Origin: Campylobacter upsaliensis
GTDB taxonomy: Bacteria > Campylobacterota > Campylobacteria > Campylobacterales > Campylobacteraceae
DNA length: 64,000 nucleotides
Assembly: GCF_900637395.1 (NCBI RefSeq)
Contig: NZ_LR134372.1
Span: 806,001-870,000 of the forward strand
Reading direction: 5' to 3'
Shown here: in pieces, positions 15,438-61,136 of the stretch
Numbering within the stretch: the first letter of the stretch is position 1
Layout: every line of letters begins with the position of its first letter
Made by a program: the position numbers and the translations under genes
Notes under the pieces: model-generated
What the model was told of the DNA's origin: nothing
Databases searched by the model: none
The model's input: the letters and a program-made list of their open reading frames with translations, nothing else

Positions 15438-15459
15438 ATTTTACCAAAAAAAAAAAAAA
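15438..15459 (-). promoter_or_regulatory. Chemoreceptor promoter with T14 tract
   Basis: On the minus strand, 14 consecutive T (complement of A14 at 15446-15459) are followed by GG and TAAAAT (15438-15443). This is the Campylobacter sigma-70 layout with an unusually long homopolymer. Length change would alter the distance between the upstream T-rich element and the -10 box, giving possible on/off or graded expression. Confidence 0.55.
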
Positions 15460-56378: not shown

Positions 56379-59249
56379 TTAAAAAGTCTTATGCAGTCTT
56401 AAACTAGCAGTGTGTGATGTTGCACTTTCTCCAAAGAGGAATTTATAGCCTAAACTTACATCTACTCCATAAGGATTTATCCACATAAAAGCTCCCCCTA
56501 ATTGTGAATAGTATTTTGATGTTTCAAAATGATTGGTAAAGTTTTGATTATTGATTTTAGTTTGGGTATCTATTTCATTATTAAGATTGACCCTTACACC
56601 TCCATCAAGCTGAATAGCAACATTATCTTTTCTTTTAAACCAATTCAAACTTGCTGTTGCATAAGTGATACCATAAGTCATATCATCTAAGCTTTCTTTA
56701 TAGGCTAATTTATTCCCTTTCATATCAAAGCCTTTTAACTTAGCTCCTGTATGACCTATGCCTATTTGAGGAGTAAGATATTGGCTATGATCTTGTAAGT
56801 TATAATAAATAATAGAAGCTAAAAATACTCTAGCATCATAAGCATAGTTTTTTGCATCTCCTTGAGATTTAAAACCACTTACTGGTTCCCTTTCAAGATC
56901 TGCTTTAGTATAAGAGCCTCTTATATCCACTCCACCAAAAAGTTGTCCTATATGACTTTGAGCTAGTTCTATGCTATATTTTGAACCAAGTAAGAAAGTA
57001 TCACTATCAAAATTAAAGACATCATCAGCTAAATGAGTCTTATTTTTCTCTACTGCTCCATAAAGCATTAATAAGCTATTATCAAAATATGTATGTCCTC
57101 CTGCTAAGATACCAGAGCTTGTTCCATCTGCTTTTTCTGGTATATCTGCTAAGTCTGTTTTAATCTTAGAATAATAAGGACGCACAAAGATATCAAAATT
57201 TGTATCAGGTTGGGTTCTTTTATATCTTAAAGAAGCACGACTTGCTTCATTTAAGAAAGAATCAAATAATAAAGAACGACGCCCTAATTGATTGATAAAG
57301 GCTTGAGAGAATAAACCTGCCGCACCAAGATTAGCATTAAAACGGGTGTCTATGGTTTGAGTTTGTGCATTAAATTTCCCATAAAAGCCACTTTGTTTAA
57401 GATCTTGTGAAAAGTCTGCACTTTTAACATAAACATTTCCAACTCCAGTATTAGCAGCACCTGATACTGAATTAGCTAAAGAAACACTTTTACCAATTTG
57501 TGTATCCTCACTCACTAAGGCTATGGTAAGTTTATCTATGGCTACTTTAGCTTGAGTGGTATTAGCATTATTTGTATCTACAAGCTTAACAGTTGCATAG
57601 GTTTCTTGTGCTGTGGTGGCTGTTCTTACTTCACCAAAATTTAAAGTAGGAGCAGCACCACTTGCTATTCTAAAGGTAGAAATTCCATTATTATAGCCTA
57701 TATTCATATTATCATTAATATTAATCTTACCATTTCCACCTATTTCTATATTAGCAATTCTACCTTGTTGCATATTATTTAGTTCAAAATCACCTGAAGT
57801 AATTTTAAGATTTTCAATAGTGCCTTGGTAATTGTTTAGGGAGCCACCTTGAGTGGTAAAGAGGCTAATGTTTTGTTGAAGGTTATTAAAGCTTCCGCCT
57901 TCTTGTTTTAAAGAGCCTATCGTTCCACCTTGATAAGTAAAGTTTCCTCCTTTTTGAGTAAGAGTTTGTATAGTGCCTCCACTTTGCATTGTGTTTCCAC
58001 CTTCTTGAGTGTAGGTTTGGATAGAGCCTTGATTATTAACATTACCTCCTGTGTTATTAAGCATAGTGATAGTTCCACCTGTATTCATAACCCTACCGCT
58101 AGTATTAGTTAAGGTTGCTATAGTGCCGCTTTGATTTGTTACACTTGCATTGGCATTATTGTTATTAAGCGTAGTGATGGTTCCGCCTGTATTCATTACA
58201 TTACCGCTACCATTATTGTTGAGGGTGGTGATAGTTCCGCTTTGGTTGGTTATAGTATTCATATTATTAAGAGTGCTAATTGTTCCGCCTTGATTTGTCA
58301 AATTTCCGCCTCTGTTATAGAGAGTGCTTACTTTAGCATTATTATTTATAGTTGTGCTACCTCCATTTTGATTAAGGGTTGTGATAGTTCCGTTATTAAG
58401 AGTGCTTGTGCCATTATTTTGCTGGAAAGTATTTATCGTTCCATTTGTGCCATTTAAAGTGGCATTACCACCATTATTTTCTATCGTTTTTATCGTCCCA
58501 CTTTGATTGTTAAGGGTTAATTTAGCCCTATTGTAGTATAGATTAATGCTATCTATCGTTCCTGTGTTTGTTAAATTTGAAATTGTCGATTCTTGATTAT
58601 AGTGACCATTCATAAGCCATAGTTGTTTTATTGTGCCTTGGTTATTAAAAGTGCCTGTAATCAATCCTTCTTGATTATATAATGCGCCTATCGTTCCTGT
58701 GTTTGTTAAATTTGTGATAGATTCAGAATTGGTAAAATCATTTATCGTTCCATTATTAGTGAAATCATTTATCGTTCCAAGATTTAGCATATAGCCTTTA
58801 TCTATCGTTCCACTATTAGTGAAATTATTTATCGTTCCCTCATTGCGGATAGATTGTTTTTTGTTATCAGCTACCGTGATGCCTCCATTTGAGCCTATGG
58901 TAATGCCATTTACCCTAGTGTTCCTGCTCACAGAGACACCGCCCCCAGCACCGCCTGAGGCATTAGCAGTAAGCTTAGCATTGATAGTTAAAGTTCCTGC
59001 GGAGTTATTATTTGTATAAAAAATCCAGTTTTTGTCATTAACCGTGCCTCCGTTTGAGATTGTTAAATCATTGCCATTTTGGCTACTTCCATCAGGCTTA
59101 TTATGCACCCACGCTGCTTGCAAAGGGCTATATAAGGCAGTGATGACGCTTAAGGCTAAGAAAGAGGGGATTAAACGACTTTTGAAACTATGAGAGTCTA
59201 AGCGACTCTGGGGTAAATTTTGAATTCCTTGCTGATTACAGAAGAGCAT
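56379..59249 (-). CDS. Phase-variable autotransporter (OFF as sequenced)
   Basis: The main frame encodes 956 residues: an extended signal region with a hydrophobic core (SFLALSVITALYSPLQAAW, about 28-47), an Asn/Gly/Thr-rich passenger with many repeats of a GGTITTLNN-like unit (about 170-490), a linker, and a C-terminal beta-barrel (about 680-956) ending in the outer-membrane signature Phe (RLHKTF). The natural start is probably ATG 59294-59296, preceded by AAAGGA and a TATAAT. Between it and this frame lies a G16 tract, and with 16 G the frames do not join; 17 (or 14) would give MKKDLINSLAGGGGGAMLF. The ATG at 59249 has no usual ribosome site. Likely an adhesin. Confidence 0.85.
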   Translation of the reverse strand: MLFCNQQGIQNLPQSRLDSHSFKSRLIPSFLALSVITALYSPLQAAWVHNKPDGSSQNGNDLTISNGGTVNDKNWIFYTNNNSAGTLTINAKLTANASGGAGGGVSVSRNTRVNGITIGSNGGITVADNKKQSIRNEGTINNFTNSGTIDKGYMLNLGTINDFTNNGTINDFTNSESITNLTNTGTIGALYNQEGLITGTFNNQGTIKQLWLMNGHYNQESTISNLTNTGTIDSINLYYNRAKLTLNNQSGTIKTIENNGGNATLNGTNGTINTFQQNNGTSTLNNGTITTLNQNGGSTTINNNAKVSTLYNRGGNLTNQGGTISTLNNMNTITNQSGTITTLNNNGSGNVMNTGGTITTLNNNNANASVTNQSGTIATLTNTSGRVMNTGGTITMLNNTGGNVNNQGSIQTYTQEGGNTMQSGGTIQTLTQKGGNFTYQGGTIGSLKQEGGSFNNLQQNISLFTTQGGSLNNYQGTIENLKITSGDFELNNMQQGRIANIEIGGNGKININDNMNIGYNNGISTFRIASGAAPTLNFGEVRTATTAQETYATVKLVDTNNANTTQAKVAIDKLTIALVSEDTQIGKSVSLANSVSGAANTGVGNVYVKSADFSQDLKQSGFYGKFNAQTQTIDTRFNANLGAAGLFSQAFINQLGRRSLLFDSFLNEASRASLRYKRTQPDTNFDIFVRPYYSKIKTDLADIPEKADGTSSGILAGGHTYFDNSLLMLYGAVEKNKTHLADDVFNFDSDTFLLGSKYSIELAQSHIGQLFGGVDIRGSYTKADLEREPVSGFKSQGDAKNYAYDARVFLASIIYYNLQDHSQYLTPQIGIGHTGAKLKGFDMKGNKLAYKESLDDMTYGITYATASLNWFKRKDNVAIQLDGGVRVNLNNEIDTQTKINNQNFTNHFETSKYYSQLGGAFMWINPYGVDVSLGYKFLFGESATSHTASLRLHKTF
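57850..58790 (-). repeat. Passenger-domain repeat region of the autotransporter
   Basis: About 20 imperfect copies of a unit of roughly 30-50 bp encode the GGTITTLNN/NQSGTI pattern. Fragments such as the one coding for TNTGTI (near 58560 and 58694) are nearly identical. Such arrays can expand or shrink by recombination, changing passenger length. They form a regular beta-solenoid-like sequence. Confidence 0.75.
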
Positions 59250-59296
59250 TGCCCCCCCCCCCCCCCCGCAAGAGAGTTAATAAGATCTTTTTTCAT
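59198..59296 (-). other. Out-of-frame leader ORF of the autotransporter
   Basis: Starting from the ATG with the good ribosome site, the present tract length gives MKKDLINSLAGGGGGQCSSV and so on, stopping at TAG 59198-59200 after 32 residues. This is the expected truncated product of the OFF state. Confidence 0.75.
59252..59267 (-). repeat. Poly-G tract, 16 G on the coding strand
   Basis: Sixteen consecutive C on the plus strand give G16 near the 5' end of the autotransporter gene. Campylobacter lacks efficient mismatch repair and uses such tracts for on/off switching. From ATG 59296 the gene is in frame with 14, 17 or 20 G and out of frame with 16. Assembled tract length may be a population majority or a sequencing error. 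Confidence 0.93.
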
Positions 59297-59333
59297 AACT
59301 AAATCCTTTCTAAATAAGATAAAAATAATCGTA

Positions 59334-59339
59334 ATTATA
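59334..59339 (-). promoter_or_regulatory. -10 box of the autotransporter gene
   Basis: On the minus strand tttttccttATAATt holds TATAAT about 38 nt upstream of the ATG at 59296, with AAAGGA between. This supports 59296 as the true translation start. Confidence 0.5.
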
Positions 59340-59380
59340 AGGAAAAATTAATGAAAAGTAAAGAGGAATTTGAAAAATCG

Positions 59381-59394
59381 TTTTTTTTTTTTTT
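59381..59394. repeat. T14/A14 homopolymer between the ATPase and autotransporter genes
   Basis: Fourteen T on the plus strand are followed by GTAAAAT, a promoter-like layout pointing right, antisense to the ATPase gene. On the minus strand it is A14 about 40 nt upstream of the autotransporter -10 box. Length variation could modulate either. Confidence 0.6.
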
Positions 59395-59423: not shown

Positions 59424-61136
59424 CTAAAATCCTACAATTTTACTTTTATCAAAACTTCCCTCAAGTTCTTTTTGTATGCTTTCTAAAAAAGCTCTCATCG
59501 TAAAAATGCCGTCCTTTGAAATGGCTGTTTTTAGGGCTGTGTTTTTCACTACCATAAGAATTTGTGCGCCACTTAGCTCGTATTTGGCTAGAGTTTCAAG
59601 CTCAAAAGCCTCTTCAAAATCCGCATTTTGAGGCAGAAATTTCTCCCACATCTTAAGCCTGTCCTTAAAATCAGGCTTTTTAAATTCAATCTTTAAATCA
59701 AAACGCCTAGAAAACGCACTATCAAGGCTTTCTAAAAAATTGGTCGTGGCGATTAAAACTCCGCTAAAACGCTCGATTTGCTCTAGGAAGATATTTTGCA
59801 TTTGATTGTGCATTTTATCACTTCCACTGCCTCCCTCTATGCGTGTGCTTAAAAACTGGTCTGCTTCATTTAGCAGTAAAATGGGGCTTTGCTTACAAGA
59901 ATTGGCGATATTTTTATAAGTGTCAAAAATTTTCCGCACATTTTGTTCGCTCTCGCCTACCCATTTGCTTAAAATTTTAGAGCAATCAAAGCTTAAAACC
60001 GCCTTTTTCATAGCCTTAGCTACGCCAAATGCTGACATCGTTTTACCTGTGCCTGGAGGTCCGTAGAAAATAATCTTTGCTTCGATATTTTTAGAGCTTT
60101 TAATCCCCCATAAACTAAGCCTTTCAAGGACTTTTTTATCTTTTTGTTTTAGGATATTGCTTAAAAGCTCTTTGGTGTTTTCTGGCATTATGATGTCATT
60201 AATGTCGATATTTGGCTCGATAAGTTCGAAAATTTCTTGCTCTTTGACAAGGCTTTCAAGTTTTAGCTTTTGATTTTGTTTGGTAGGAGAATTAATCACC
60301 CTTTCTAACACTTCATCGCTGATAAAAAAGCTCTTAGAAAGCTCTCCAAAAGCGTTTAAATACTCATCATACTCGATTAAATTTAAAAGCTTAGAATCGT
60401 CCTCTAAAAGCTTTTTATTTTGACGCAGTTCAAGCTCGTTTTCACTGATGAGATTAAGGAGGGCGTTTTGCTCTCTGGCGGCTGAGTTTTCGTGGCTTAG
60501 GGTGTATTCCTCCTTTAAGAGTGATAAGAATAGAATTTGCTCTTTAGCGTTTAGGGCGTGTTCTTTGAAAATCGCATTTAAGACATTATGAAATTTGCTA
60601 AGTTTCAAGCACTCTTTAATATACTTTTCAAATTCTTTAATGTGGCTTTTAAGCACGGCATAATACTCGCTATGCCTTGCGAAAGAAAGCTTTTCATAAA
60701 GCTCCACTTTTAAAAACTCGTCCCTTAAATACTCCAAATAAGCCCCATAAGCTTTAATTTTAGGCACTTCAAAGGAGGTTTTGCTGTCTAAAAAGTCTAA
60801 AAAATACTGACTAAGGCTTAGTTCGCTTTGAAGTAAGACTAGCTTAGAATTGCTTAATTTATTTGAATCGATATTTTTAAAAAAGCCCGAACCACTCGTT
60901 ACAAAACCGCGTTTAATCAAGCCTTTTAAATCCTCTAAATAATCTAAATAAGCATAATCTTTCTCCCCAAAAAGTCCCACAAGTAAGCTAAAAGCACTCA
61001 CGGAGGCACTGGCACAAACATAGCTTTTACAAAGCTCTTTCAAAATCAAGGCTTCATTTTTAGAGCATTGAAGTCTTTGATAAAGCTTGGTTTTTTCAAT
61101 TTTAGGTTCGTTTAAAAATTCTTTAAGTTCAAGCAT
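59424..61136 (-). CDS. AAA+ ATPase
   Basis: The 570-residue protein has a long helical N-terminal part (about 1-310, no known domain) and a C-terminal AAA+ module: Walker A GPPGTGKT, Walker B ILLLNEADQF (Asn-Glu form), sensor 1 ATTNF, and arginine-finger SRRFD. The family resembles Cj0377 of C. jejuni, whose role is not known to me. It lies 8 bp after the lipoprotein gene, in a run with yajQ. Confidence 0.87.
   Translation of the reverse strand: MLELKEFLNEPKIEKTKLYQRLQCSKNEALILKELCKSYVCASASVSAFSLLVGLFGEKDYAYLDYLEDLKGLIKRGFVTSGSGFFKNIDSNKLSNSKLVLLQSELSLSQYFLDFLDSKTSFEVPKIKAYGAYLEYLRDEFLKVELYEKLSFARHSEYYAVLKSHIKEFEKYIKECLKLSKFHNVLNAIFKEHALNAKEQILFLSLLKEEYTLSHENSAAREQNALLNLISENELELRQNKKLLEDDSKLLNLIEYDEYLNAFGELSKSFFISDEVLERVINSPTKQNQKLKLESLVKEQEIFELIEPNIDINDIIMPENTKELLSNILKQKDKKVLERLSLWGIKSSKNIEAKIIFYGPPGTGKTMSAFGVAKAMKKAVLSFDCSKILSKWVGESEQNVRKIFDTYKNIANSCKQSPILLLNEADQFLSTRIEGGSGSDKMHNQMQNIFLEQIERFSGVLIATTNFLESLDSAFSRRFDLKIEFKKPDFKDRLKMWEKFLPQNADFEEAFELETLAKYELSGAQILMVVKNTALKTAISKDGIFTMRAFLESIQKELEGSFDKSKIVGF

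Follow-up and report, generated by a model that had tools for sequence, protein, structure and literature searches.

The 64,000-nucleotide stretch of the Campylobacter upsaliensis chromosome analysed here (hereafter the window; contig NZ_LR134372.1, positions 806,001 to 870,000) carries on its minus strand a predicted autotransporter gene of 956 codons, at the 5′ end of which a tract of 16 guanines (G16) separates an upstream leader start codon from the long reading frame. G16 puts the leader start and the long frame in different registers, and this copy is therefore probably off; slippage within the tract would switch it, and seven sister copies in the same genome, each with a G run of its own, would be switched independently. 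We hold this reading, which is built on sequence comparison, with good confidence.

Minus-strand features are given in forward-strand window positions, such that 5′ to 3′ on the minus strand corresponds to falling numbers. In this direction, an A14 tract is followed by a promoter-like site, an AAAGGA ribosome site, the leader ATG at 59296, 29 nucleotides (nt), G16, the dinucleotide CA, a second ATG at 59249 and 956 codons extending to 56379. On the plus strand the tract reads as C16 (59252-59267) and is the sole run of at least eight C or G in the 64-kb window, whereas about 2.5e-7 runs of at least 16 are expected at the base composition of the window. The two start codons, 59296-59294 and 59249-59247, are 47 bases apart and thus lie in different frames. 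Specifically, translation from 59296 as assembled terminates at TAG 59200-59198 after 32 residues, and the 956-codon frame is open upstream through the tract, back to TAA 59279-59277. An earlier sequence-only reading of this stretch had described the out-of-register tract and the 32-residue product, and both are reproduced when the spacing is re-counted and the assembled sequence translated; the second start falls just beyond the interval that it described, 59252..59296. The promoter and ribosome site that it placed ahead of 59296 are likewise found, as TTTACT-17-TATAAT and as AAAGGA 7 nt upstream of the ATG. The former is a match to consensus, of a kind that occurs at two sites in the 501 bases scanned versus 1.0 expected from shuffles.

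The protein is predicted to be a type Va autotransporter, on the grounds of structural models and of a Pfam match of its C-terminal 353-residue piece to PF03797 Autotransporter (33.5 bits, above the cut-off of 26). The model of the barrel (mean predicted local distance difference test score, pLDDT, 77; predicted template modelling score, pTM, 0.75) shows a long helix and 12 strands of at least 12 residues plus shorter strands, and its best Foldseek matches are EstA (9.3e-16) and NalP (4.5e-14), with AaaA and EspP close behind. In the full-length AlphaFold2 model the barrel part is poor, and a beta-helical passenger with strands of mostly high pLDDT is predicted at about residues 60-510; the Foldseek matches of this passenger are autotransporter passengers but weak, the best being Ag43 (E value 0.042). 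By eye, the protein read from 59249 has a hydrophobic N-terminal stretch. The nearest named proteins in the protein search come from C. upsaliensis, followed by C. felis and C. vulpis.

Eight dispersed loci of this family are found in the genome, a single contig of 1,671,550 bases, both by protein search and by search with the leader DNA. All eight share a similar promoter, ribosome site and ATG, a leader of 26-31 nt and a tract of G14-G17, with A14 or A15 upstream. The 110 nt ahead of the tract are 65-100% alike among the copies; farther upstream their DNA is unrelated (42-58%). From nt 120 to 600 past the tract the copies are 41-69% alike, except for the near-identical pair L061 and L064. 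Over the final 900 nt, seven of the eight copies agree at 99.2-100%. The eighth copy, L067 (G000:C1:138500-144000), has another barrel type, about 47% alike, behind the common promoter-leader-tract cassette, and its end resembles the copies of another Campylobacter genome, G048 (86-87% over about 1.5 kb). No passenger-only piece is present among the 10 matches of the protein search in this genome. The genome holds 67 runs of at least nine G (37 forward, 30 reverse), so that the eight loci belong to a wider set of G runs, in agreement with the account of C. upsaliensis RM3195 by Fouts et al. 2005 (PMC539331), in which G tracts are described as longer, more numerous and more variable, with a poly-Gly rather than a poly-Pro reading. 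Several of the 67 runs cluster around 175-185 kb and 1458-1480 kb.

Two further features of the cassette may bear on expression. In the window copy the A14 tract precedes the -35 site by some 18 nt and the G tract by about 125 nt. A11-A15 is found at the equivalent place in all 13 copies inspected (the window copy, L061-L067 and L100-L104), whose surroundings are similar; the window contains one other A or T run of at least 10, A14 at 15446-15459. By analogy with the promoter repeats of SabA, the A tract could tune transcription and is a possible second homopolymer switch, of expression level. Additionally, five copies (L061, L064, L065, L066 and L067) carry an extra ATG 14 nt ahead of the leader ATG, in another frame and overlapping the ribosome-site region; such leaders might yield protein in two of the three phases, at different levels.

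Altogether, 43 loci of the present genome and of further Campylobacter genomes were compared, representing most, not all, of the matches of two protein searches. The window protein has matches in 11 of 49 Campylobacter genomes, and a C. jejuni relative used as query has matches, at E 1e-60, in six of the 49; genome G013 accounts for nine copies. In 34 of the 43 loci the tract is joined to an open long frame, 10 in frame with the leader and 24 out of frame. As assembled, the out-of-frame copies have leader products of 9-41 residues, and all 24 keep long frames of 797-1443 codons. In the present genome, three of the eight copies are in frame and five, including the window copy, are not. The tract differs in length between copies that are otherwise alike: seven copies of G013 have an identical leader and identical 60 nt after the tract, yet carry G7, G8 or G9, and four copies of G048 with the same leader carry G15 or G16. 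A protein of another strain, P0003, is identical to L061 over 877 residues (100%) and starts at a different ATG in a different leader frame, from which it follows that its tract length differs from that of L061. Taken together, these differences are evidence for slippage between lineages and copies, that being the level at which sequences were compared, as opposed to within a culture. The sequence-only reading had called this arrangement the expected phase-variation layout; the layout itself is as it says, and the eight shared cassettes, the differing tract lengths and the long frames of the out-of-frame copies support a translational frame switch.

The promoter-leader DNA is kept in the eight loci of this genome, four copies of G048 and one of G040. 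A genus-wide leader cassette was considered and rejected: at E 0.001 there are matches in 31 of 49 genomes, but values of at most 2.4e-8 occur at only 13 places in three genomes, and the remaining matches, short and AT-rich, are taken for chance. G013, a contig of 1,520,669 bases, harbours a separate nine-copy autotransporter family (L140-L148) whose last 900 nt are 99.9-100% identical; seven of its members have the same leader and the G7-G9 tract, and in the other two the tract and leader have been lost from the long frame.

In 20 of the 34 copies the first 30 nt past the tract contain no ATG in frame, which leaves the leader ATG as their only near start. In line with this, 16 of 120 listed relatives have gene calls, that is, annotated starts and not mapped N-termini, that begin with a methionine shortly ahead of a glycine run. 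Eleven belong to the C. upsaliensis group (P0002, P0003, P0008, P0010, P0013, P0016, P0017, P0022, P0041, P0085 and P0096) and five to C. lari or C. armoricus. P0003 is annotated from the extra upstream ATG of its leader, and P0085 has no methionine after the tract, its leader and long frame being read together.

Several observations weigh against the proposed switch or its generality. A Pfam search with the whole 956-residue protein gives no match. The tract is absent near the long frame in eight of the 43 loci, and in one more (L106) a stop lies between tract and frame. The 10 in-frame copies of 34 are compatible with one in three (P(X<=10) = 0.39), yet this fit is weak because copies within a genome are not independent. 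Among C. jejuni-type relatives, a glycine run near the start (GGG in the first 40 residues) is found in 0 of 124. Finally, in 14 of the 34 copies an ATG does follow the tract in frame at a distance of up to 30 nt, 2 nt in the window gene, and the G run itself pairs with the 16S tail at a predicted -10.5 kcal/mol, a stronger value than the top 1% limit for 2000 random positions (-8.1 kcal/mol); the AAAGGA site of the leader, at -5.7 kcal/mol, falls just short of the strongest 5% (-5.9 kcal/mol).

The state of the window copy depends on the count of 16. Long homopolymers are error-prone in all sequencing, and this count could be an assembly error or the majority of a mixed culture, in which case many cells would have the copy in frame. 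The tracts of its sister copies, taken from the same assembly, range from G14 to G17, with no single systematic value, and we consider a miscount unlikely; it would bear on the state of this copy, not on the switch. Nevertheless, the assertion in the sequence-only reading that the gene had been captured in its OFF state goes beyond the evidence, because it rests on the assembled count, which may be wrong or reflect a mixed-culture majority.

A different challenge comes from the second ATG. The strong pairing of the G run, together with the 14 copies that have an in-frame ATG behind it, makes a leaky or dual start at 59249 a serious rival: the G run would serve as the Shine-Dalgarno sequence of this ATG, protein would be made in every phase, and the leader would only modulate translation or extend the N-terminus in one phase of three. 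A protein started there would retain the hydrophobic N-terminal stretch. However, the 20 copies without such an ATG still have tract and leader, P0085 is read through from its leader, and the promoter-leader is kept across the eight copies here, the four of G048 and the one of G040. A start at 59249 as the whole explanation is, in our judgement, quite improbable, and yet the window copy may not be fully silent, because the tract could act as a ribosome site for this ATG.

Placing the tract in an untranslated promoter or leader region, where its length would change transcription by spacing as published for capC, is very improbable. C. upsaliensis is counted among the capC carriers, but here the tract is preceded by the promoter-like site, ribosome site and start codon, and the in-frame copies (three of eight) have an uninterrupted frame that runs from the leader ATG across the tract as far as the gene's end; moreover, in the capC paper the CapC of C. 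upsaliensis is listed as a translation of a frameshifted gene (PMC7168839). The converse idea, that the capC tract published as a promoter tract is as a rule an intragenic one that was misread, was rejected, since the absence of GGG from the first 40 residues of all 124 C. jejuni-type proteins keeps it from being extended to C. jejuni. Least credible is a permanently frameshifted, decaying pseudogene: lineage-specific decay of capC and capD is described for C. jejuni and C. coli (PMC7168839), and in two of nine G013 copies and in L106 tract and long frame are no longer joined, as noted above, but 956 codons are intact here, every out-of-frame copy keeps its long frame, and over the final 300 codons of seven copies five of the seven codons that vary do so only silently.

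In the preferred reading, the slippage switch would work as follows. Ribosomes would start at the leader ATG and read into the poly-G tract. In frame, translation would continue into the signal peptide, the beta-helix passenger and the barrel; out of frame, it would meet an early stop. Slipped-strand mispairing would alter the length of the G run between generations, and recombination among the copies would keep the barrel end and the promoter-leader alike while the passengers differ. Within a population, many combinations of exposed surface proteins would result.

The sequence pattern on which the recombination step is modelled is itself observed. L061 (162 kb) and L064 (1,092 kb) are 98-100% alike in each 150-nt window. 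In the alignment of the 3′ ends (1353 columns), seven columns vary from 842 onwards (842, 956, 1174, 1182, 1183, 1277 and 1319), and at all seven L064 groups with L062 and L061 with L068, even though the similarity of L061 to L068, and of L064 to L062, is only about 39-72% over the gene's first half. L066 sides with L061 and L068 at 842 and 956, and with L062 and L064 at 1277 and 1319. Columns upstream of 842 are mixed, 67, 377 and 437 being among those that break the pairing. Homogenized ends are also seen within other genomes: over the last 900 nt, four G048 copies are 99.8-100% alike, and the copies compared from G028 (four of six loci), G001 (three of four loci) and G021 (two copies) are each 100% alike. 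Between genomes the same stretch is 89.7% alike for G048 versus G040 and 45% for G048 versus the window gene.

The flanks point in the same direction. G048 has a counterpart, 95% alike, of the gene upstream of the window copy (570 codons, 59424-61136), and on both sides the DNA flanking the window copy matches that flanking G048 locus L103 at 92-93%. L103 has the same kind of leader and G tract, but a different signal, passenger and barrel, which implies that the address and the switch are common to both species and that the gene behind them has been exchanged. Elsewhere, the upstream flank of L063 matches that of L102 and its downstream flank that of L100, and the downstream flank of L061 matches that of L102, as if a crossover between copies had taken place. 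Taken together, the conflicting sites and the flanks suggest that copies have recombined with one another. For L061 and L063 a clean inversion was rejected in favour of flank exchange: three of its four predicted flank matches are found, and the fourth, between the regions upstream of L061 and of L100, gives no match of at least 300 nt. Flanks have thus been traded between this genome and G048 (L061/L063 versus L100/L102, L155-L158), as if family copies had been crossover points for chromosome rearrangement.

Table 1. Features of the window copy, in forward-strand window positions
Feature	Position	Strand	Basis
A14 tract upstream of promoter (T14 on plus strand)	59381..59394	-	Sequence; tract at equivalent place in 13 of 13 copies inspected
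Promoter-like site	59334..59362	-	Consensus match alone; kept in sister copies
Ribosome site	59304..59309	-	Read from sequence; predicted pairing with 16S tail
Leader start and resulting 32-codon frame, including stop	59198..59296	-	Sequence as assembled
G16 tract, predicted slippage switch	59252..59267	-	Sequence; tract in all eight copies of the genome
956-codon autotransporter frame, gene-caller style start at 59249	56379..59249	-	Open reading frame and relatives
Passenger region, predicted beta-helix	57720..59072	-	AlphaFold2 model; weak Foldseek matches
Autotransporter beta-domain, PF03797 stretch	56532..57191	-	Pfam match of C-terminal piece; barrel model

Among described autotransporters, CapC and CapD of Campylobacter have a conserved C-terminal barrel, divergent passengers, poly-G near the 5′ end and different alleles at one address (PMC7168839), and the window family shares the conserved barrel end, the divergent passengers, the 5′ poly-G and the exchange of alleles at an address. 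As in CapD, its poly-G lies within the coding sequence, a likeness of tract position as opposed to sequence. In C. jejuni and C. coli, however, the alleles are described as mutually exclusive at one address, with no genome holding several intact capC (PMC7168839), in contrast to the eight loci found here, and C. jejuni-type relatives are about 20% identical to the window barrel piece. CapA (Cj0628) of C. jejuni is a phase-variable autotransporter with reported roles in adhesion, invasion and chicken colonization, described in the review as a single gene (PMC8355987); it is likened to the window gene by description, and the adhesin label that the sequence-only reading attached to this gene is an analogy with CapA that exceeds the evidence. 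The Hsr autotransporter of Helicobacter mustelae shows antigenic variation, its passenger being varied through recombination; it has one expression site with adjacent silent cassettes (PMC2846917), whereas each of the eight loci here has its own promoter-leader-tract and long frame.

The mode of working resembles systems of other protein families. In Opa genes the frame switch lies near the 5′ end and the repeats are pentamers, and SabA is not known to be an autotransporter. A Neisseria gonorrhoeae genome has about ten Opa loci, which are dispersed, vary in phase separately and have alleles that recombine; fewer than one in three of these genes are in frame (PMC13183285, section 39 for the latter). 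The eight loci here, with their conflicting sites and flanks, resemble it as several dispersed loci that exchange sequence and would switch separately. They differ in the PF03797 family of the protein, a distinction drawn at family level, in poly-G instead of pentamers, and in an in-frame share (10 of 34, a small sample) not different from one in three. SabA of Helicobacter pylori has slippage tracts in both the promoter region and the coding region, with CT repeats in the latter (PMC2715451), comparable to the A and G tracts of the window family except that poly-G takes the place of CT in the coding region. The family thus appears Opa-like in its many loci and SabA-like in its two repeat tracts, and its protein belongs to the autotransporters.

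A phase-variable Campylobacter autotransporter would be expected by specialists; less so a homogenized family of eight loci that keep their addresses and carry two homopolymers in each cassette. The word 'autotransporter' is absent from the main text of Fouts et al. 2005 (PMC539331), and the titles and abstract openings listed, which do not cover subscription journals and supplements, contain no description of an eight-copy family in the C. upsaliensis group. Such a family could be the reason that labels such as partial or frameshifted are found on many autotransporter records of C. upsaliensis, and gene calls that start just past a G run are to be treated with caution, as they may mirror the phase of the sequenced culture.

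More broadly, we tentatively suggest, as a reading that could well prove wrong, that several Campylobacter lineages run an Opa-like shuffling of autotransporter coats. In five genomes, four to nine dispersed loci per genome would have their barrel ends overwritten by gene conversion, and passengers would be exchanged at fixed addresses while the switch ahead of them stays the same. Overwriting would extend to the promoter-leaders in the upsaliensis group, with A11-A15 setting the level and G12-G17 the on or off state, and with the G run perhaps acting as a ribosome site that gives a third, low-level state. Single phase-variable autotransporters are already known in Campylobacter, and a homogenized, separately switched multi-locus set would be surface variation on another scale, eight loci allowing 256 on/off combinations. 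Because slippage and gene conversion leave separable marks in this family, the share of each in the diversity of the cell surface may be measurable.
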